From positions 62,001 to 126,000 of the forward strand of contig MNXJ01000057.1 in NCBI GenBank assembly GCA_001872455.1: 64,000 nt of DNA. Direction: 5' to 3'. Shown here in pieces: positions 52,072-64,000 of this stretch. Both the position numbers and the translations under genes were made by a program. This DNA is from Anaerolineae bacterium CG2_30_57_67. Lineage in GTDB: Bacteria > Chloroflexota > Anaerolineae > Anaerolineales > Villigracilaceae. The stretch's first letter is position 1; every line of letters starts with the position of its first letter. The notes under the pieces are model-generated. The model did no database searches. It had not been told where the DNA came from and was given only the letters and a program-made list of their open reading frames with translations.

Positions 52072-53238
52072 ATGATTTCTTCTGCAAACCTGGTGGAAAG
52101 CCTGCTGAAGGAAGCCTGCCTGCTGACCGGCTGCTGCTGGTCAGTTTCTTTAACTTGCCGGGGTGAAACCTGTCAGTTGGGCGAAAATTATCGCTTGACG
52201 AAGGCGCGTGAAAGTCAATTGCGTCAGTTTCTAAAAGAAAAAAACAACCTGGCCTGGCTGTTTGGCGTTTTCAGCGCCGGGCGGATGCGCGCGCGCGCCT
52301 TGCCCGCCGCCGAATCCAACTTGCGTTTGTATGCTTTTCCCTGCGCGGATGCGCAAACCGTTTTACTGGCCGCCTCTTCCGCCGAGTTGCCGACCACGCA
52401 GCAGCGCATCTGGCGATTGGTCAGTTTGGCGCGCCTGGGTGGAGAGCAAACTGCCCGCTTGCAGCAGGCAGTTTTGGCGCTGGAAGAAACACAGCAAGAA
52501 TTGCAGGCGCGGATTGCCGCCCAACGCGAAGCCGAGTCGCGCCTGGTGCAGGCCGCCAAACTGGCCGCCGTGGGCGAAATGGCCGCCGGGGTGGCGCACG
52601 AACTCAATAATCCATTGACCAGTGTGGTCGGTTTTACCGAACTCAGCCTCGACGCCCTGCCGCCCGATTCGCCAGTGCGCGGCGACCTCGACCTGGTGTT
52701 GCGTGAGGCGCAGCGCGCTCGCAGCGTGGTGCGCCGCCTGCTTGACTTTGCCCGTCAGGGCGAAACCCTGCGTGTCCGCGCTGACCTGAACGAAATTGTA
52801 GAAGATGTTGTCATGCTCACCAAACATTTTCTGCAAACCAGCGGTGTGCGACTGGATGTGCGTTTGGGTCAGGAACTTCCCTGGGGGCAGTTTGACCGTA
52901 ATCAAATTAAACAAGTCCTCATCAACCTGGTCAATAACGCCATGTACGCCATGCCTGAAGGCGGCAGTCTCATCCTGGAAACATCTAGGTGCGAGCGCTA
53001 TGCCCGCTCCTGGCTGCAATTGCAGGTGCGTGATACTGGCGTCGGCATTCCTGTCGAGCACCTGGAACGCATTTTTGAACCCTTCTTTACCACACGCGGC
53101 GAAAAAGGCGGCACTGGCCTGGGGCTTTCTGTCACCTACGGCATCGTGACTGATCACGGCGGCATGATTGAAGTGGAAAGCCAACCCGGTAAAGGCTCCA
53201 CCTTTACCGTCTGGCTGCCACTGGAGGCGCAGGCGTGA
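52072..53238 (+). CDS. Sensor histidine kinase
   Basis: AAVGEMAAGVAHELNNPLTSVVGFTEL H-box; N, G1, G2 boxes. Start at 52072 rather than track start 51616, which overlaps trmFO. Confidence 0.9.
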   Translation: MISSANLVESLLKEACLLTGCCWSVSLTCRGETCQLGENYRLTKARESQLRQFLKEKNNLAWLFGVFSAGRMRARALPAAESNLRLYAFPCADAQTVLLAASSAELPTTQQRIWRLVSLARLGGEQTARLQQAVLALEETQQELQARIAAQREAESRLVQAAKLAAVGEMAAGVAHELNNPLTSVVGFTELSLDALPPDSPVRGDLDLVLREAQRARSVVRRLLDFARQGETLRVRADLNEIVEDVVMLTKHFLQTSGVRLDVRLGQELPWGQFDRNQIKQVLINLVNNAMYAMPEGGSLILETSRCERYARSWLQLQVRDTGVGIPVEHLERIFEPFFTTRGEKGGTGLGLSVTYGIVTDHGGMIEVESQPGKGSTFTVWLPLEAQA

Positions 53239-54800
53239 CCAAACAGCGTATTTTGGTTGTGGATGATGAACCCGGCATTGCTCTGCTGTGTGAACGCCTG
53301 CTCACCCTCGCCGGGTTTGAGGCCGTCACTTATACCGACCCGCGTAAAGCGCTGGAACACCTGCAAACTGAGCGCGCCGACCTGTTGCTGGTGGATATTC
53401 GTATGCCCGAAATCAGCGGCTTCGATGTCATCCAATTGGCGCGCCAATACCAGCCCGAAATCGCCCTGCTTGCCATGACCGGTTACGGCACGGTCGAAAC
53501 TGCAATTCAGGCCCTGCGGCGCGGGGTGGATGGGCTGATTCTTAAACCTTTCGAGAAAGGTGAACTCATTCCGACAGTACAACAGGCGCTTGCGGATAGC
53601 CAGCAAAAGCAGGATGTTGCCCGTATGCGCGCTTTGCGCCCGCTCTTTAGCGTTACTGAGACTCTGTTCGCTGAAACCCGCCCAGAAGCCCTGCTTGACC
53701 TGTTACTTGGCACCGTTTCGCGGCAGTTGGCCTGCCCAAACGTTGCTTTTTATCAATACTTCTCGCGTGAAAACGAACTTCGTTTGTTGGGCGCTTGTGG
53801 GAAAAAGCCGTCCAGCAGCTTTGTTGCCCGCACTCATGATTTGGAGCAAGTCGTGTGGGGCGTTATTGGCCTGACGAAAGACGCCGCGCTGGAGCAGGAA
53901 ATGACGGAAGCGGGATTTTGCTCCATTTTGGTGGTGCCAACCTCCCTGGCCGATTCGCGCTCAATGTTGTTCGCCGCCCGCGATAGTGGTGAGACCCCTT
54001 TCCGTGAATCCGACATGGAAATGTTCATGATTCTGGCGCGGCAGGCGGCGATTGCCATGGAAAACGCCCGGCTCTACGATGAACTCCGCGCCTATGTGCG
54101 CCGTGTTGAGGAATCACAACAGGCGCTGGTGCAGGCCGAAAAACTAGCCACTGCCGGGCGGCTGACGGCTTCCATTGCTCATGAAATCAACAACCCGTTG
54201 CAGTCGGTGCGCAACTGTTTGCATTTGGCAACCCGCGAAGATGCGCCCGCAGAGATGCGTCAAAAATATATGGATTTGACCCGTCAGGAGCTGGACCGCC
54301 TGATGAACACCGTTCAGCGTATGTTGGATTTTTATCGCCCCAGTGTAGAGTTTCGCCCTGTTCAAATTCTAGATTTGCTCGAACACGTTCTCAATCTGGT
54401 TGGCTCACAATTGCGTGAGCGCAATATCCACGTTACCACAGCGTGGCCTGCAAAATTGCCTGGTGTGATGGCAATCAGCAATCAGTTGGAACAAGTTTTT
54501 ATCAACTTGATTCTTAATGCCTTCGATGCCATGCCGCAAGGCGGTGAAATTTTCGTCAGTATTGACAAAAAACGCAAATGGATCGAAATCACTTTTCAGG
54601 ATAATGGCCCTGGTGTTCCGCAGGAAATGCGGGAGAGCATTTTTGAACCTTTTATCAGTACCAAGGGCGGTACCGGGCTGGGGCTTTCCGTCAGCTACGA
54701 CATTATTATCGCGCACGGCGGGCAGTTGGATTATCTCGCCAATCATCAGCCGGGAGCCTGTTTCCGCGTGCGGTTGCCAATCAAAGAAAATCGGGAGTAA
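53235..54800 (+). CDS. REC-GAF-histidine kinase
   Basis: RILVVDDEPGIA...LLVDIRMPEISGFDVI...; GAF; ASIAHEINNPLQSVRNCLHLA. Confidence 0.92.
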   Translation: MTKQRILVVDDEPGIALLCERLLTLAGFEAVTYTDPRKALEHLQTERADLLLVDIRMPEISGFDVIQLARQYQPEIALLAMTGYGTVETAIQALRRGVDGLILKPFEKGELIPTVQQALADSQQKQDVARMRALRPLFSVTETLFAETRPEALLDLLLGTVSRQLACPNVAFYQYFSRENELRLLGACGKKPSSSFVARTHDLEQVVWGVIGLTKDAALEQEMTEAGFCSILVVPTSLADSRSMLFAARDSGETPFRESDMEMFMILARQAAIAMENARLYDELRAYVRRVEESQQALVQAEKLATAGRLTASIAHEINNPLQSVRNCLHLATREDAPAEMRQKYMDLTRQELDRLMNTVQRMLDFYRPSVEFRPVQILDLLEHVLNLVGSQLRERNIHVTTAWPAKLPGVMAISNQLEQVFINLILNAFDAMPQGGEIFVSIDKKRKWIEITFQDNGPGVPQEMRESIFEPFISTKGGTGLGLSVSYDIIIAHGGQLDYLANHQPGACFRVRLPIKENRE

Positions 54801-54805
54801 AAAAT

Positions 54806-55543
54806 ATGAAAGCCAATATCCTTGTTGTAGACGATGAACCGATTGCGCGTCAGTCGCTGAGCGATATTTTGCGGCTGGAGGGCTATACCGTCGTGTCCGT
54901 TGCAAACGGCGAATTGGCGGTGGAACATTTGCGCAACCACTCGGTTGACGTGGTTTTACTGGATTTGAAGATGCCCGGCATGAATGGGCTGGATGTTGTG
55001 CAGGTAGCCAACCAAATTGTTCCCGATACGGAAATTATTCTACTGACGGCCTATGGTTCGATGGAAACGGCCGTGGAAGCCTTGCGCCAGCGTGTTCATG
55101 ATTATCTGCTCAAACCTGCTTCCCCCAATCAGATTCTGGAAAGTGTGCAACGCGCTTTAACGCGCCGTGAAGTGCGTTTACAGGAAAGAGCATCTGCAGC
55201 GTCTAACGAAGAAATCACCATTCTCCGTACCCGCGATGGCGTAGAAGTGGATTTGTCGCGGCGTACTGTCAGCGGCGCGGGACATATCGAAAACCTGACT
55301 CCGGCAGAAGGCCATTTGTTGAAGGTTTTTGTGGAAAACCCTGGCAAGGTTTTCTCGCACCGCGACCTGGTCTTGTTGGTGCAAGGTTACGATGTTTCAC
55401 AGCGTGAGGCCCAGGAAATTTTACGTCCACTGGTCAGCCGTTTGCGCCACAAGTTGGAAGCGTTTGAAGGTTTGTTCGAGCGAATTGTCAGCGTGCGCGG
55501 CACGGGGTATATTTTTGAGATGGAGAACGCTGCGAAGAAATAA
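54806..55543 (+). CDS. Response regulator with OmpR-like wHTH
   Basis: ILVVDDEPIARQSL...VVLLDLKMPGMNGLDVV; wHTH LTPAEGHLLKVFVENPGKVFSHRDLV...VSVRGTGYIFE. Confidence 0.92.
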   Translation: MKANILVVDDEPIARQSLSDILRLEGYTVVSVANGELAVEHLRNHSVDVVLLDLKMPGMNGLDVVQVANQIVPDTEIILLTAYGSMETAVEALRQRVHDYLLKPASPNQILESVQRALTRREVRLQERASAASNEEITILRTRDGVEVDLSRRTVSGAGHIENLTPAEGHLLKVFVENPGKVFSHRDLVLLVQGYDVSQREAQEILRPLVSRLRHKLEAFEGLFERIVSVRGTGYIFEMENAAKK

Positions 55544-55545
55544 CG

Positions 55546-56493
55546 CTATTCTTGAAAATTCCAGGGGTCAATGTGAGGCGGATGCAGCCAGGCCAGCCAG
55601 CCGCCTTTCGGTCGTGATGACCCGGGTGATTCAAAGGACGCCAGCAGTAGCGTCACGCCTAAAATTCCCACTCCAGCCCACTGCAATGGACTGAGCCGTT
55701 CGCCAAGTAACAGATGACTAATGCCAATTGTCACGAAAATTTCTGTCAGACCAAGCAAGGCGGTTTGCGTGCCGCCGATATTTTTGATGCCCAGAAAGAG
55801 CGTGAAACGCGAGGCAAACGTAATCAGCGTCAGCAACAAGACCGGCGTAAAACTGATCGTTGCGGCGGGCAAGCTGCGGTCAAACAGCAGGTAGGCGGGT
55901 AGCGTGACGATTGTCATCGCCAGCAGTGTGTAAAATGTCACCGTCGGCGCAGGAATTTCGTATAGCACTCTCTGGTTAATGGGGATATGCAAAGCGTAGA
56001 GCGCCGCTGAGCCAATCATCATTAAAATGGCCGGCCAGTTGGTATTCATGCCATTGGCGATGGTTAATAAAAAAACAGCCAACAAGGCCAGCCCGGCTCG
56101 AATCATCGTCAGGCGGCTGATGGGTTGTTGGTCTAGCACCGAAAACACAGCGACAAAAATGGGGTAGAGCGAATAAAGCAATTGTCCTACGCTTGCGGGC
56201 AGGGTACTGAGCGAAACGTAGTACAGCAACGAGCCAAAGCCATTAATTGTCCCCGCTAACAGACAGCCCACCAATCCAACTGGAAAAATATACAAAAATT
56301 GTCGTCGAAAAAGCACCATTACTGCCAGCATCAGCAAGGTTGCCAGGCCGGTGCGTAAGGCAACCGTCAACAACGGGCTGAATCCAGAAAGGATTGCCCA
56401 GCGCCCAAAAACGGGCGCCAGCCCTAAAAATAGTGCAGAGGACAGAGCCGCCAAAATGCCGATGTTCTGTCGTTGCTTGGCGCTATGTTGCAT
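55546..56493 (-). CDS. DMT/EamA family transporter
   Basis: About 10 TM helices in two EamA repeats. Confidence 0.88.
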   Translation of the reverse strand: MQHSAKQRQNIGILAALSSALFLGLAPVFGRWAILSGFSPLLTVALRTGLATLLMLAVMVLFRRQFLYIFPVGLVGCLLAGTINGFGSLLYYVSLSTLPASVGQLLYSLYPIFVAVFSVLDQQPISRLTMIRAGLALLAVFLLTIANGMNTNWPAILMMIGSAALYALHIPINQRVLYEIPAPTVTFYTLLAMTIVTLPAYLLFDRSLPAATISFTPVLLLTLITFASRFTLFLGIKNIGGTQTALLGLTEIFVTIGISHLLLGERLSPLQWAGVGILGVTLLLASFESPGSSRPKGGWLAWLHPPHIDPWNFQE

Positions 56494-56500
56494 TGGTGCT

Positions 56501-58180
56501 TCAGCGTATCAGCGATTTGACTTCTTCCAAGAACTCATCGCTCATAAAATCGCCCTTTTGCATAAGCGCGTGAATTTGCCCTTGCAGACGGCCCTTTTCG
56601 CCTGGCGTTAATTCTTTTGCAGTTGAAACGATGACCGGGATTTGCGCTGTTTCCGGGTCGGCTTTGAGCGCATCCAGCACGGCGAAACCGTCCATTTCGG
56701 GCATCATCAGGTCGAGAATCAATAAGTCGGGGTGCTCACGCTGAATCAGTTCCAAGCCTTCACGGCCATTCGAGGCTTCAAAGAGGGTGTACTCGCCCTG
56801 TGATTGTAAAATGCGCCGGATCAGCCGCCGCGCGTCGGCAGTGTCGTCTACGATGGCAATGCGCGGGAAACGGTCGGGCGCAATGCGGCTGAGCGCGGCC
56901 AGTAAGCCTTCTTCTTGTGGAGATTCTTCCTGCGAGGGTAAAACCACGTTGCGCGCCCAGCTCGACCCCAACACCAGCGGTTCGGCGGGCATGGTATGCC
57001 CAGTGCAGTTGACTACGACTACGTCGTCCGGTTTGATAATTCCGGCGTGCGCCAGTTTAAACAGACCGGCAAAGGCGGCGGCAGAAGCGGGTTCTGCTGA
57101 GATTCCTTCCATCTTTGCCAGAACGTGCATGGCGCGGAAGGCTTCTTCGTCGGTGACGCTTTCAAACAGGCCATTAGCTTCCAGCATTTTTTTGCGCAAA
57201 ATTTTATAGGCGCGGCCAGGTGTGCCGGTTGCCAGGGTTTCGATGTGGGTTTTGGGGTTGACGACGGGGGAAGCATCGTCCAGATTTTGTTTCCAGGCGT
57301 GAACCATGGGGGCGCAACCATCAGCCTGGATGCAGGCGATGGCAGGGATTGTGCCGCTTGCACCGATGAAGCCCATCTGACGCATTTCGAGAAAGCCTTT
57401 GGTGACGCCAATGGGACCCAGCCCACCGCTGATGGCTTGGACGTACCAATCGGGAGTGCGCCAGCCGGGGCCTTGTGCCGGGGCGAGCCGGTCGCGGCCA
57501 AACTCCAGCGTTAGTTGTTCGGCGATTTCGTAGGCGATGGTTTTCATCCCCTCCACCGAGGTGATGGTGCGCGCGCCCATGTCGAGATACAGCCCGCGCT
57601 GGCTGGCAAAATCGGCGGCAATTTTTTTAACCTGGTCGTACGAGCCGGTCACTTTGACAACTTGACTGCCGTACAGGGCGATTTCGCGCATTTTGACGGC
57701 GGGTACCAGGCTGGTGACAAACGCCCACAGTTTGATGCCGGCGCGGGCAGCGTAGGCCGAATAGGCGATGGCAACGTTGCCGGTGGAAGCCGCCACCATT
57801 TCTGTAATTCCGGCTTCTTTCAGCGCCGCAATCGTCACCGCCGCCTGGCGGTCTTTGAACGAGGCCGAAGGTCCCTGGCGTTCATCTTTGATGAAAATGT
57901 TGTTGCACCCCAGCATCGTGCCGATGTTGGTGGCGCGGATGAGCGGCGTGCCGCCCTCGCCCATCCGCAAGGCGGGTTGCACTCGCGCGATGGGGAGCAG
58001 TTCTTGATAGCGCCACAAGTCGAACGAGCGTCCGGCGAGAACGCCCGGCAGGGCTTTAGCAATTTCGGTGTAGTCATAAATGGCCTCGCGCCACTGACTG
58101 TTACACTGCGGGCAGTTGATTTCGTTGGGGTGGTAGGCCGTCAGATGGCCGCAGTCCATGCACCGGACGCTGAAAGACAT
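56501..58180 (-). CDS. Threonine synthase-like PLP enzyme fused to a C-terminal receiver domain
   Basis: CMDCGHLTAYHPNEINCPQC zinc ribbon, GGTPLIRA, GPSASFKDRQA PLP lysine, AASTGNVAIAYSAYAARAG; then RIAIVDDTADARRL...LLILDLMMPEMDGFAVL...IVSTAKE...MQKGD. Confidence 0.92.
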   Translation of the reverse strand: MSFSVRCMDCGHLTAYHPNEINCPQCNSQWREAIYDYTEIAKALPGVLAGRSFDLWRYQELLPIARVQPALRMGEGGTPLIRATNIGTMLGCNNIFIKDERQGPSASFKDRQAAVTIAALKEAGITEMVAASTGNVAIAYSAYAARAGIKLWAFVTSLVPAVKMREIALYGSQVVKVTGSYDQVKKIAADFASQRGLYLDMGARTITSVEGMKTIAYEIAEQLTLEFGRDRLAPAQGPGWRTPDWYVQAISGGLGPIGVTKGFLEMRQMGFIGASGTIPAIACIQADGCAPMVHAWKQNLDDASPVVNPKTHIETLATGTPGRAYKILRKKMLEANGLFESVTDEEAFRAMHVLAKMEGISAEPASAAAFAGLFKLAHAGIIKPDDVVVVNCTGHTMPAEPLVLGSSWARNVVLPSQEESPQEEGLLAALSRIAPDRFPRIAIVDDTADARRLIRRILQSQGEYTLFEASNGREGLELIQREHPDLLILDLMMPEMDGFAVLDALKADPETAQIPVIVSTAKELTPGEKGRLQGQIHALMQKGDFMSDEFLEEVKSLIR

Positions 58181-58190
58181 AAGAATTCTC

Positions 58191-61100
58191 CTATCCCGCA
58201 TTTAACCGCTTAAGAGTTTTTTCCAGCGTGGAAAACAGTTCCTTTTCGGTCAACATGCCTTTTTGCAACATTTGCTTGCCCAGGTTGTCTAGTTTTTCGC
58301 GCTGTTCGCTGGTCAATTCTGCGCCGCTGATGACGAGTACCGGGATGTCGCGCAGTTTGGCGTCAGTGCGCAGACGTTCCAGAATGGCAAACCCATCCAT
58401 CTCGGGCATAAAAAGGTCAAGGATGATGGCCTGTGGATGATTGGTTTCAATCATTTTCCAGCCTACCAGCCCGCCCTGGGCCAGGACAGGCTGGTAGGAG
58501 CCGCTTTCGGAGAGAATTTTTTCAATCAGCCGCAGGTCTTCTGCTGAGTCGTCAATTACCAGCACTGATTGTATGCTTCCGTCGCCATTGAGCCGGTTGA
58601 GCGCCCCAATCAGGTCGTCTTCCAGAATGGGCTTGACCAGGTAGTCAGCGGCGCCCAGGCTGAAGCCTTTTTCTTCTTCTTCCACAATTGAGCAGATGAT
58701 GACCGGCAGGTTGCGTGTTTCTGGGTCATTTTTCAGTTCTTGTAAAATTTGCCAGCCGTCTACGTCAGGCATCATGATGTCGAGTGTGATGGCGTAAGGA
58801 TGCAGGCGTTTGGCGGCATCTTTGGCGGTGGCGGCGTTGCTGACCGGCACAACCTGATAGCCCTCGGGTTTCAGGTAGCGCTCGTACAGGCTGGTGATTT
58901 GCGGGTCATCATCAATACACAGGATGATTTTCCCATCGCCAACCGGATTATTTTTGGGTTGGTGGTACATTGGTAGGGTGAAGTAGAAGGTGCTGCCCTC
59001 GCCCTCGGCGCTGTGAACGCCGATGCGCCCACCGTGCAGGTCCACCAGTCGGGCGCAGATGGACAGCCCCAGCCCGGTGCCGCCCGATTTGCGGGTGGCT
59101 GACGAATCGACTTGAGAAAAGGCCAGGAAGAGTTTTTTCTGGTCTTCGGGTGAGATGCCCGGCCCTGTGTCGGTAACGCTGACCATTACCTCGTGTACGC
59201 CGTCCGAACTGACGTGCGCTTGTGCGGCAATGGTGATGGCGCCTTCTTCGGTAAACTTGGAGGCGTTGGATACCAGGTTGAGTAATACCTGCCGAATACG
59301 CATGGCGTCGGCGCGTACGGTGGGCAGCCCCGATTCGATTTCCTTGACCATCTGGATGGGTTTGTCTTTGATCAGCCCCATGGCGGTCGTCAGGACGCTG
59401 GAGATGCTATCGGCCAGGTTGACTTCTTCCAGCGCCAGCTCCATCTTTCCGGCCTCGATTTTCGACAGATCGAGAATGTCGTTAATCAACATCAGCAGGT
59501 GTTGCCCAGAGTTGTAAATGGCGAGCAAATCCTGATTTTGTTGTTCGTTGATGGCGCCGTCAATGCCCTTGATGATGACGCGCGAAAAGCCGATGATGGA
59601 GTTGAGTGGGGTGCGCAGTTCGTGCGACATGTTTGCCAGAAACTGGCTTTTGATGCGGTCGAGTTCGCGCATTTCGGTGACGGCTTTTTGCGCCAACTCG
59701 TAGGAGCGGGCGTTGTCAATGGCAACGGCCACCTGGTCGGCCAGCGTTTCCAGCACGGCGATGTCTTCGTCCAGGAAAGCGCCCACCTCGCGCGACTGAA
59801 TATCCAGCGCCCCGATGACGCGCTGACCGATTTTTAGCGGGATGCCCGCCTCGGCGCGGGTCTCTGGCAGTTGCGGGTTGATGCGGTAGATTGGGTCGAG
59901 CGCGGTATTGTTGACAATCAGTGTGCGCCCGTTGGCGGTGACATTGCCGATAATTGACTTTGAGCCAACAGCCAGGGCGTGTTGGCGGGCTTTCATCTCC
60001 TCGCCCGCCTCGCCGGTGGCTTCGCGCAACACGGCGTTGAAACCAGTTTCTTCGACAATGAAGATGGCAACGTGGTAGTAGCCAAAACGTGAGCGAATTA
60101 AATTGGTGGTGCGGTTGAAGAGTGTCGGCAGGTCGAGTGTGGAGGTGATGATGCGGCCTACCTCGGTGGCGGTTGCCAGATATTCATTTTGGCGGCGCAA
60201 GGCCTCTTCGGTGCGGTTGCGTTCGGTGACATCCTGCCAGATGCTGACGTAGTTGGTGACCTCGCCGCTGGCGTTTTTTACCGGGGTGATGGTTTGTTCG
60301 ATGATGAAGAGTGTGCCATCTTTGCGCCGGTTGGTGATTTCGCCAAACCAGGTTTTACCGCTGAGGATGGTTTCCCATAAATTGGTGTAGAAATCGGCGC
60401 CGTGTTTGCCCGATTTCAGCAGGCTGGTTTTACGGCCGATCACTTCCTCCCGGCTGAAGCCGGTTTGCTTTTCAAAGGCTGGGTTGGCCCAGGTGATGTT
60501 CGCTCCGAGATCGGTCAAAACGATGGTGTTGGCGGCCACTTCCAGTGCGGCGCTTTGGAGCAGAATTGACTCTTCGGCGCGGATTTTCTCGACAACGGTA
60601 GCAATTTGCGGCGCAAGGCGGCTCAAAATCTGCATGTGTTCGCGTGTCAGCACCAGGCTATCGTCGTAGGACTGGGTGGCGAACATGCCAATTGTTTCTT
60701 TGGTGCGTAGGGGCAAGCCAATCCAGATGTTGGAAGGCGTACCGCGTATAATGATTTCGCCCGCTTCGTTCATGGCTTGGACGTCTTGCGCGCTGGCATA
60801 GAGCGGGTTGCCCGTGTTGATGACGCGCGTGGTCAGATTGGTGCTGGGCGTGTGTGTTGACCAGGGTTCTGGGTCGTGTTCGTCGGCCTTGTAAGGGTAT
60901 GAAATTTGGTTGCGCTCGCGGTCGAAGAGCGCAAAATACAGGTTGCGGGCCGGGACGATGGTTTGCAGGGCGTGGTGGATTTCTTCCAGCGCTTTTGCCA
61001 GTATCACTTCTGTCACGCCGATTTCGGTAATTTTTGCAACCACTTCGTCAACTTTTTGGTCTGTACGCTGAACCGTGATGTCTTTATTGACGCCGCGGTA

Positions 61101-63374
61101 GCCGGTAAATTTTTTATTGACATCAAACATTGGCACGGCGTTGGTCAGCAAAATGACCTCGCGTCCGTCTTTGGCCAGGTTGCGGTTTTCCATATCAAGC
61201 ATGCGGCCTTTGCTGCGGTATAGGTCGCGCATCACGGTACCGATGCGCTCACTTTCGTCGGCGGGCATAAAAGCGCGCGGATTTTTACCGATGACTTCTT
61301 CTGGCGTATAGCCCAATACTTCGACGACTTTGTCGGAGCAATAGGTGTATCTGCCGCGGGAGTCAATTTCCCAAACCCAGTCGGCGGTTGCCAGCGCCAC
61401 GTCGCGGAAGCGGGTTTCGGAGTTTTGGATTTCTTGATAGAGCCGCGCGTTTTGAATGGAGGTGGCGGTTTGCAGAAAAATTGCTTCCAGCAATGATATT
61501 TCTCCCGGGCTGAGGCGGCGGTCTGCCTCGAGAATATCCACGCCGGCGGTGCCAATGACTTCCTCGCCTGCCAGAATGGGGAAGATTGCCAGGTTTTGCG
61601 TGCCGCGTTTCGCCATTATCTCGCGAATGGGTTCCATCAGTGGGCTGTTGGGCACATCTTCCACCCACAGGTGTTGACGGGTGTTTAGCACTTGTATGGT
61701 GGCGGCGTTGCCTTCGATGGGGATGTTCGTTCCCAGGTCGGGCGAGCCGCCTGCTGGGGCGGGCGTGTCGGCTACTAAAATCAGATGTTTTTTATCGGGG
61801 GAAATCAGCGTGATGCCGATATGCCCGACCTTGAAGTAGGCTTGAATTTTTTCGGCGATGCTTTGCAGGCTGTTTTCCAACTTGAGCGAGCCGGAAACAG
61901 AACTGACGATTTCGTTGAGGAGCGATTGTTCTTCAGCGCGCTGCTGCGCCTGGGCATACAGGCTGGCGTTTTGAATGGCAACGGCGGCCTGGGCGCCAAT
62001 GGACTTTGCCAGCGGCTTCATCTCGGCAGTGTAGGTATTGGCGGTTCCGTGGTCAAGAATCAAAATGCCGATGACGGCGCTGCCGACCAGTAGCGGCACG
62101 CCCATCCACGAGCTAATGTGCGCGGTTTCTTCGCGCACGTCCCAGCGTGGGTCTTGGCGCACATCGGCCAGGATGAGCGGTTCGCGCGTGGTGACGATTT
62201 CATGAATGATGGGGTCTTCCTGCTCGGGGCGCAGGTAGTAGCTATCGGGGTGGTGAATTTCTTCCAGACGTTCCTGGTCGTAACTGATTCCGCCTACTTG
62301 ACGGCGTTTCCCCTGTGATTCAACTAGTTGAATGCTGGCAGTGCCGAAGCTGAGCAGACGCGGCAATTGTTGCAACAGGCGTTGAACAACAATGTCCAAT
62401 TGCAACGACTCGCCGGTAATACGCGCCATGTCCGAAAGCGTATCGGCCACCTGGCGGCGATATTGTTCTTGCTGGTACAGCTGCGCGTTTTGAATCGAAC
62501 CGGCGATTTGGGCTGCCAGCGTGCTGAGAATGGCCTGGTCTTCTTCGCTGAAAAAATTGATCTTGTCAGAGTGAATATTGAGGACGCCCAAAAGGTTGTT
62601 GCCGGTAAAAACTGGCAGCGCCATCTCGGCGCGTATATTTGGCAACAACGGGTTGGCAAGCCAGTTTGGATCCTGGCTGACGTCGTTATCTACCACCACC
62701 TGGCGGCTACGGGCCGCGCGGGCGACAATGGAAACGGGTTGGTCAATCTCAACTTCGCGCGCGCCGTGCGTGCCCTGGTGTTCGTCATCTTCCTGCCAGC
62801 CGCAGGCTTGCACTTTTAGCGTGTGCTGGTTACTTTCCAACAGGAAGATGTGGGCGTGATACAGGTTGAAACGGCGTTGGGTGAGATGTACCGCTTCTTC
62901 GAGCAGGGGTTGTAGTTCGAGAATGGTCGAAATGCGGGTGGAAATTTCGGCAATCGCCTGCAGCTGCTGGGCCGATTTGCCGGTCTTCTGGAAGAGCTGC
63001 GCATTTTGCAGCGCCAGGCTCAGCTGGTCTACCACCTGACGTAATAATAATCGGTCATCTTCCTGCCAGACGCGGTGTGAATCGTCCACCACTTCCAGCG
63101 AAGTGAGGCCATCTTCTTGTTCAAAGGGAATGGCAAGCGTGGAAAGGTTGTCGCGCGAGGTTTGCGTGACGGTGACTGCGGACGATGGCAACATCCCAGT
63201 CAGTGCGCGGGTGTTGACCTGACGGGAGGCGGGTACCGGTTCTGCCGCAGTTATTTTTTTGGTCGGCTTTTTGGGCAGGGCAACTTCTCGCGGGGTTGCG
63301 GCTTCCTGCTCAGTGGGCTTGATGTCGCCAAAGATCTTATTCAGCCTTTTGCGCATTTCCTTGTTGTCTGACAT
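58191..63374 (-). CDS. Giant multi-GAF/PAS hybrid histidine kinase with two C-terminal receivers
   Basis: Repeated GAF and PAS modules, ANMSHELRTPLNSIIGFSRVI H-box, receivers ILCIDDDPQI...LDIMMPDVDGW and VLVIDDSAEDL...LDLFMPEMDGF. Confidence 0.93.
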   Translation of the reverse strand: MSDNKEMRKRLNKIFGDIKPTEQEAATPREVALPKKPTKKITAAEPVPASRQVNTRALTGMLPSSAVTVTQTSRDNLSTLAIPFEQEDGLTSLEVVDDSHRVWQEDDRLLLRQVVDQLSLALQNAQLFQKTGKSAQQLQAIAEISTRISTILELQPLLEEAVHLTQRRFNLYHAHIFLLESNQHTLKVQACGWQEDDEHQGTHGAREVEIDQPVSIVARAARSRQVVVDNDVSQDPNWLANPLLPNIRAEMALPVFTGNNLLGVLNIHSDKINFFSEEDQAILSTLAAQIAGSIQNAQLYQQEQYRRQVADTLSDMARITGESLQLDIVVQRLLQQLPRLLSFGTASIQLVESQGKRRQVGGISYDQERLEEIHHPDSYYLRPEQEDPIIHEIVTTREPLILADVRQDPRWDVREETAHISSWMGVPLLVGSAVIGILILDHGTANTYTAEMKPLAKSIGAQAAVAIQNASLYAQAQQRAEEQSLLNEIVSSVSGSLKLENSLQSIAEKIQAYFKVGHIGITLISPDKKHLILVADTPAPAGGSPDLGTNIPIEGNAATIQVLNTRQHLWVEDVPNSPLMEPIREIMAKRGTQNLAIFPILAGEEVIGTAGVDILEADRRLSPGEISLLEAIFLQTATSIQNARLYQEIQNSETRFRDVALATADWVWEIDSRGRYTYCSDKVVEVLGYTPEEVIGKNPRAFMPADESERIGTVMRDLYRSKGRMLDMENRNLAKDGREVILLTNAVPMFDVNKKFTGYRGVNKDITVQRTDQKVDEVVAKITEIGVTEVILAKALEEIHHALQTIVPARNLYFALFDRERNQISYPYKADEHDPEPWSTHTPSTNLTTRVINTGNPLYASAQDVQAMNEAGEIIIRGTPSNIWIGLPLRTKETIGMFATQSYDDSLVLTREHMQILSRLAPQIATVVEKIRAEESILLQSAALEVAANTIVLTDLGANITWANPAFEKQTGFSREEVIGRKTSLLKSGKHGADFYTNLWETILSGKTWFGEITNRRKDGTLFIIEQTITPVKNASGEVTNYVSIWQDVTERNRTEEALRRQNEYLATATEVGRIITSTLDLPTLFNRTTNLIRSRFGYYHVAIFIVEETGFNAVLREATGEAGEEMKARQHALAVGSKSIIGNVTANGRTLIVNNTALDPIYRINPQLPETRAEAGIPLKIGQRVIGALDIQSREVGAFLDEDIAVLETLADQVAVAIDNARSYELAQKAVTEMRELDRIKSQFLANMSHELRTPLNSIIGFSRVIIKGIDGAINEQQNQDLLAIYNSGQHLLMLINDILDLSKIEAGKMELALEEVNLADSISSVLTTAMGLIKDKPIQMVKEIESGLPTVRADAMRIRQVLLNLVSNASKFTEEGAITIAAQAHVSSDGVHEVMVSVTDTGPGISPEDQKKLFLAFSQVDSSATRKSGGTGLGLSICARLVDLHGGRIGVHSAEGEGSTFYFTLPMYHQPKNNPVGDGKIILCIDDDPQITSLYERYLKPEGYQVVPVSNAATAKDAAKRLHPYAITLDIMMPDVDGWQILQELKNDPETRNLPVIICSIVEEEEKGFSLGAADYLVKPILEDDLIGALNRLNGDGSIQSVLVIDDSAEDLRLIEKILSESGSYQPVLAQGGLVGWKMIETNHPQAIILDLFMPEMDGFAILERLRTDAKLRDIPVLVISGAELTSEQREKLDNLGKQMLQKGMLTEKELFSTLEKTLKRLNAG

Positions 63375-64000
63375 AGTCAACTAACTCCTGAGCAAGAATA
63401 CGGTATTGTTGTGAGCCGCGGCTGTTGGGGCGATACTGGCTGATGGGAATCCCCACGATGGGGCTTTCACGCAGGCGCGTGTCAATTTCGATCACTGCGG
63501 TAAACAACCCGGCGCCGAAAGTTTGTTGCAACTGCTCGCGGATGGCGCGGTGGGCGCGGTTGCGTTCATCCAGTAAGGTGATGAGAATGCGATACGCCAG
63601 ATCGGGGTTGCTATCTTTGCGAATGCGCCGGATGATGGTCATCATGTCACGCAGGGCGTAGGCTGAAAAATATTCTGCTTGGGTGGGGATAACCAGTAAA
63701 TTGGCCGCAGTCAGCGCGTTGGTGGTAATGGCGCCCATGGATGGCGGACAATCCATCAGAATATAGTCAAATTTTTGTGCTTCGGGGCTTTTAAGCGCAT
63801 CGCGCAAAATGAACTGGTAGTTCATCCGAACCGGTAAAAAATGTTCCGCATCTACCATGCGCGAGGAGGAAGCCACCAGCTGTAAGTTGGTCGTTTGGGT
63901 GGTCTGAATGCTGTCTTGCAGAGCCGACCCATCCAGTAAAATTTCGGCGCTGGTGTGGGCGCTTTTGCCCGGCTCCAGCCCGTTTGCCAGCGTCAGATTG
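63337..64000 (-). CDS. ParA/MinD/Soj-type ATPase (5' end beyond window)
   Basis: FDYILMDCPPSMGAITTNALTAANLLVIPTQAEYFSAYALRDMMTIIRRIR; frame open to the right edge. Confidence 0.9.
   Translation of the reverse strand, partial: NLTLANGLEPGKSAHTSAEILLDGSALQDSIQTTQTTNLQLVASSSRMVDAEHFLPVRMNYQFILRDALKSPEAQKFDYILMDCPPSMGAITTNALTAANLLVIPTQAEYFSAYALRDMMTIIRRIRKDSNPDLAYRILITLLDERNRAHRAIREQLQQTFGAGLFTAVIEIDTRLRESPIVGIPISQYRPNSRGSQQYRILAQELVDYVRQQGNAQKAE

Follow-up and report, generated by a model that had tools for sequence, protein, structure and literature searches.

The window (the whole 64,000-nucleotide stretch analysed here) encodes, on its reverse strand, a protein in which a threonine synthase-like PLP enzyme is fused to a C-terminal receiver domain, and which, judged from its sequence, is a response regulator that has a PLP enzyme as its output. 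In the reading that we favour and consider probable, this protein would act as a two-component response regulator whose output is a threonine synthase-descended PLP enzyme with a changed substrate, controlled by kinase phosphorylation of D490. The fusion and its parts are laid out as follows.

56501..58180, minus strand: fusion of threonine synthase-like PLP enzyme and receiver, 559 residues (ORF analysis, Pfam)
58103..58162, minus strand: zinc-ribbon-like N-terminus, C7-x2-C10 ... C23-x2-C26 (all four cysteines in 73/73 aligned fusions)
57002..57967, minus strand: fold-type II PLP-enzyme (PALP) domain, residues 72-393 (Pfam PF00291, E 4.8e-63)
57854..57856, minus strand: PLP lysine K109, equivalent to K61 of Tth threonine synthase, in an SFKDR motif (lysine in 71/71 fusions)
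57545..57586, minus strand: segment LDMGARTITSVEGM (residues 199-212), in place of the threonine synthase segment LVNSVNPHRLEGQ (Tth N154, S155 and R160 missing in 71/71)
56504..56872, minus strand: receiver domain with K-G tail, residues 437-559 (Pfam PF00072, invariant receiver residues)
56711..56713, minus strand: phospho-acceptor D490 (aspartate in 73/73 fusions)

Both the PALP and the Response_reg matches lie well over their Pfam cut-offs, the latter covering residues 441-524 (E 1.7e-19). The ATG at 58180 has an AGGAG ribosome-binding site in front of it and the stop codon of the upstream kinase gene 10 nt earlier, while an alternative start, the ATG at 58201, would give a protein of 566 residues. 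AlphaFold modelling of the full-length fusion from a 15-sequence alignment gave a mean pLDDT of 62 and a pTM of 0.60, values that are moderate to weak, so the interdomain contact through which a signal might be transmitted is not reliably modelled; a Foldseek search with this model returned threonine synthases as the first matches.

The same architecture recurs widely. Matches at E<=1e-50 were found in 53 of 61 relatives, mostly as full-length fusions with 65-83% identity within the family, a tally that includes a few genomes with a standalone threonine synthase only. Fusion matches were also found in many families of the class, and in a sample of the phylum 42 of 400 genomes matched at E<=1e-80, among them a distant family of 6-Mb genomes. 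A pattern scan of genome contigs returned full-length fusions solely from Anaerolineae/Chloroflexota records, the exact peptide patterns having been taken from the window protein, so that absence elsewhere was weakly tested. That two genes were joined by an assembly error or a frameshift has practically no probability, and is ruled out by the presence of this architecture in many independent assemblies, single-contig genomes included. Both domains lie in a single unbroken frame, with no internal stops, in the window as in all of the full-length homologues listed; when relatives with separate genes were sought, every homologue above about 45% identity was found to carry both domains, contig-edge fragments aside, and the fusion proposed in the sequence-only reading is thus real.

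The fusions form three paralogous clades, A (that of the window), B and C. A second fusion paralogue in the same genome (G000:C77) is 50% identical across its whole length, and lies 2 bp behind another histidine kinase gene and ahead of a single-domain receiver. Clade C includes variants with two tandem receivers after the threonine synthase-like domain (L166:8805-10943, L168:8038-10167, L182:9573-11642 and L165:8138-13225). When the fused enzyme domains were placed in a tree with solved threonine synthases and standalone homologues, they grouped as one clade with 100/100 support and a long stem; a single origin of the fused enzyme domain appears well supported, and the sister of this clade is unsettled because some outgroup branches are long.

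At roughly half the clade B loci we also observed, one or two genes downstream, a separate receiver-less threonine synthase-like PLP enzyme of about 400 residues, 30% identical to the fusion and with SFKAR instead of SFKDR. Its position close downstream suggests that the two enzymes may cooperate. Examples, among others, are listed here.

L145:8130-9320, minus strand: receiver-less threonine synthase-like enzyme
L148:6894-8096, minus strand: receiver-less threonine synthase-like enzyme
L154:4717-5943, plus strand: receiver-less threonine synthase-like enzyme
L155:11277-12485, plus strand: receiver-less threonine synthase-like enzyme

The residues on which phosphorylation of a receiver would depend are all retained. 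The acidic pair D/E445-D446, the phospho-Asp D490, T/S520 and K542 had been named correctly from the sequence alone, and prove to be invariant in 73/73 aligned fusions, which implies selection for switch function in the receiver. A gene with a histidine-kinase core immediately precedes the fusion, in the same orientation, in 63 of 72 fusion loci, with all three clades represented; of the other nine loci several are contig ends or fragments, and L052 and L163 are apparently real exceptions. It is this combination of a complete, invariant receiver with an upstream kinase that argues for a response regulator whose output is a PLP enzyme, and it bears out the earlier view of a complete PLP enzyme joined to a competent receiver and paired with the neighbouring kinase. 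One of the exceptions (L052:9294-10958, genome G049) is a clade A fusion without kinase, ParA or transporter neighbours, with a second copy elsewhere in the genome. The neighbours of the fusion in the window are these.

58191..63380, minus strand: giant hybrid histidine kinase with a GAF/PAS array, HisKA, HATPase_c and two receivers (Pfam; likely start at an ATG near 63374)
58194..58571, minus strand: last receiver of this kinase, its tail of the same class as that of the fused receiver (receiver comparison)
63337..63999, minus strand: ParA/MinD-like ATPase, the first gene before the kinase, running off the window and complete at L011:1338-2129 (Pfam AAA_31)
55546..56493, minus strand: EamA/DMT-family transporter, directly downstream of the fusion (Pfam EamA)
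52126..55543, plus strand: convergent set of histidine kinase, REC-GAF-histidine kinase and OmpR-type regulator, conserved neighbours (Pfam, locus comparison)

The giant kinase is likely to be the cognate kinase of the fusion. In clade A, genes for membrane HAMP/GAF sensors, ParA, the hybrid kinase, the fusion and the EamA transporter follow one another, together with the convergent set of two kinases and a regulator; one sensor of the window's operon has a dCache_3 domain. Within the order, almost every clade A locus has EamA directly downstream of the fusion; a single-domain receiver takes its place in clade B, in the majority of clade C and in the early-branching members of clade A. Several further features of these loci were noted. 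Clade A kinase orthologues (58191-63380 in the window; L045-L064) keep the C-terminal core while the GAF/PAS array is highly variable, giving lengths of about 1050 to 2630 residues, as if the sensing part had been reshuffled at a fixed locus. The kinase gene begins within the ParA/MinD-like gene, which many clade A loci retain in this position; the ATPase possibly serves to place the signalling complex within the cell. At the C77 locus, and only there among the loci examined, the membrane sensors are accompanied by an SBP_bac_3 amino-acid-type solute-binding lipoprotein (L009:11858-12661).

The nearest solved structures to the fused PLP domain are threonine synthases, as are its best NCBIfam models, yet the domain scores under the thrC cut-offs of both TIGR00260 (152.0 against 167.1) and NF006050 (251.1 against 303); with the cysteate synthase model TIGR03844 it reaches 111.8 (cut-off 324.9). 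An ordinary thrC, scoring 304 bits with TIGR00260 (cut-off 167), is present elsewhere in the same genome; its neighbour is a gene for a ThrB-like homoserine kinase that was named by sequence motif. The fusions were aligned to the Thermus enzyme with verified numbering (K61, S84-T85-G86-N87-T88, N154, S155, R160), and phmmer gave the same register. In Tth numbering, K61 and S84-T85-G86-N87 (the STGN or Asn loop) are kept in 71/71 fusions. Four positions that we take to be holders of the phosphohomoserine phosphate in the Thermus complex of Omi et al. 2003, namely T88, N154, S155 and R160, are each missing in 71/71 fusions and present in 5/5 solved threonine synthases compared. T88 is replaced by V, A or K, S155 always by G and N188 always by G, and the fusions share a new conserved set consisting of Q64, A65, S187-G-G-x-G-P192, T243 and H319, in which Q64, A65, S187, G188, G191, P192, T243 and H319 are invariant. 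The 11 standalone rows of the residue table include three fusions (L076, L078 and L157), which leaves the 71-fusion counts unaffected. Since the replacements are themselves conserved, they point to a new substrate rather than to decay. The PLP domain is probably descended from threonine synthase, with a substrate that has probably changed: this would be an alpha-amino acid, given the Asn loop that was kept, and not O-phosphohomoserine, given the phosphate pocket that was lost. With the active site rebuilt, the product is probably other than threonine.

These observations bear on whether the fusion might be a genuine threonine synthase, possibly with a variant pocket, whose receiver lets a kinase regulate the making of threonine. 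The structural and NCBIfam matches fit such an enzyme, as does the adjacent EamA gene, RhtA-type threonine exporters belonging to the superfamily of EamA transporters. We nevertheless regard it as unlikely in view of the missed cut-offs, the phosphate-pocket positions altered in every fusion, the long stem that separates the fusions from all threonine synthases, and the separate thrC adjoining thrB; the earlier description of the protein as a threonine synthase, and so as a core amino-acid biosynthetic enzyme, is not supported in that form, given the cut-offs, the pocket and the ordinary thrC. The kinase and receiver context would also suit a PLP domain that is no enzyme and serves as a ligand sensor or scaffold, with an amino acid binding to PLP and gating the receiver to give the phosphorelay a metabolite input; PLP folds are known as sensors, as in MocR/PdxR-type regulators (PMC5320631). 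This we hold to be quite improbable, as the PLP lysine, the Asn loop and the new pocket residues are invariant across deep divergence, which looks like catalysis under selection.

We therefore return to the phosphorylation-controlled PLP enzyme, for which the following course of events can be proposed. A signal would be sensed by the HAMP/GAF membrane sensors, some with dCache, and by the giant GAF/PAS kinase, which would autophosphorylate and then pass the phosphoryl group to D490 of the fused receiver, directly or via its own receivers. Phosphorylation of D490 would then cause a conformational change that acts on the PLP domain and modifies its activity, and in clade A the adjacent EamA transporter may, by inference only, export the product. 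Both phosphotransfer from the upstream kinase and phosphorylation control of catalysis are inferred from the sequences. The receiver-less kinases directly before the fusions of clade B make a direct transfer plausible; those of clade A carry receivers of their own, so that a phosphorelay may run by way of an HPt or another partner. More speculatively, and with little likelihood, the genes might constitute a make-export-sense circuit, in which the enzyme turns a substrate new to the fold into an amino-acid-like signal, EamA carries this signal out of the cell, and membrane sensors of the operon (dCache, HAMP/GAF and, at one locus, the amino-acid-binding lipoprotein) perceive it and feed the kinase.

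As to where the receiver came from, the sequence-only reading had pointed to a tail resembling that of the kinase's final receiver and had proposed that it was duplicated from the neighbouring gene and then fused. The similarity is real, at about 81 bits between the window's fused receiver and the last receiver of the adjoining kinase, but it is not specific: C-terminal hybrid-kinase receivers of unrelated phyla score 94-101 bits, and the best of the tail class 94-121 bits, in a comparison set picked by similarity. Hybrid kinases that end in such a tail are common in Pseudomonadota, Planctomycetota, Cyanobacteria, Bacillota and others. Receiver trees place the fused receivers and the last receivers of clade A kinases near each other without resolution, and a constraint uniting the two as one clade was neither borne out nor rejected (p-AU 0.42), the receiver being too short for a resolved tree. 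No receiver domain was found in the kinases adjoining clade B and C fusions, so that the fusion is most simply older than the kinase's last receiver, which it probably predates. A recent copy of the neighbouring receiver is not supported, given the higher scores of outside receivers and the receiver-less kinases of clades B and C, and the proposed duplication from next door is thereby weakened. If one receiver was copied from the other, transfer from fusion to kinase is at least as likely as the reverse, and the fused receiver was itself likely recruited from some hybrid kinase.

What most response regulators govern is transcription or the turnover of second messengers. In the fusion, a phosphorylation switch seems to be coupled directly to a PLP enzyme with the threonine synthase fold, and to have been kept through the deep divergence of a poorly cultured phylum. 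With the kinase, switch residue and catalytic lysine each specified, direct control of an amino-acid enzyme by phosphorylation is immediately testable, and from the rebuilt pocket one would predict an as yet unassigned enzyme activity. Similarity-based annotation would label these fusions threonine synthase, and would thereby mislead pathway reconstruction in Anaerolineae genomes.

Receiver domains joined to standard metabolic enzymes are known, with archaeal examples confined to one family or a few genera (PMC5847659, section vii, which cites Galperin 2006 and 2010 for REC-enzyme fusions). Our literature search found no paper that links a receiver domain to threonine synthase, an earlier mention in Galperin 2006, 2010 or Petronikolou 2019 being possible; new within the literature searched is such a PLP-enzyme output in three clades over a phylum, a spread that sets it apart from the archaeal cases. 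Response regulators with enzymatic outputs (GGDEF, EAL, HD-GYP, CheB) likewise combine a complete receiver with a catalytic domain and are encoded next to a histidine kinase; in the fusion, however, the output is a threonine synthase-related fold-type II PLP enzyme and the receiver is C-terminal. That receiver belongs to the same class as the C-terminal hybrid-kinase receivers with an ELTxxE...QKG tail, which elsewhere sit on kinases, whereas the window's copy is carried by an enzyme. With ThrC (TIGR00260; Tth 1UIM/1V7C, Bsu 6CGQ/6NMX), aligned over residues 56-422, the fusion has in common the fold, the PLP lysine in SFKDR and the STGN loop; it differs in the replacement of T88, N154, S155, R160 and N188, in the added receiver, in a score under the curated cut-off, and in an added N-terminal zinc ribbon that is also seen in some other threonine synthase-like proteins. 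Cysteate synthase (TIGR03844; CapA2 9K3C), which aligns with residues 6-389, is likewise a threonine synthase-derived PLP enzyme with an N-terminal extension. It has no receiver, unlike the fusion, and as a known relative of threonine synthase with a different product it provides a precedent for a changed substrate.
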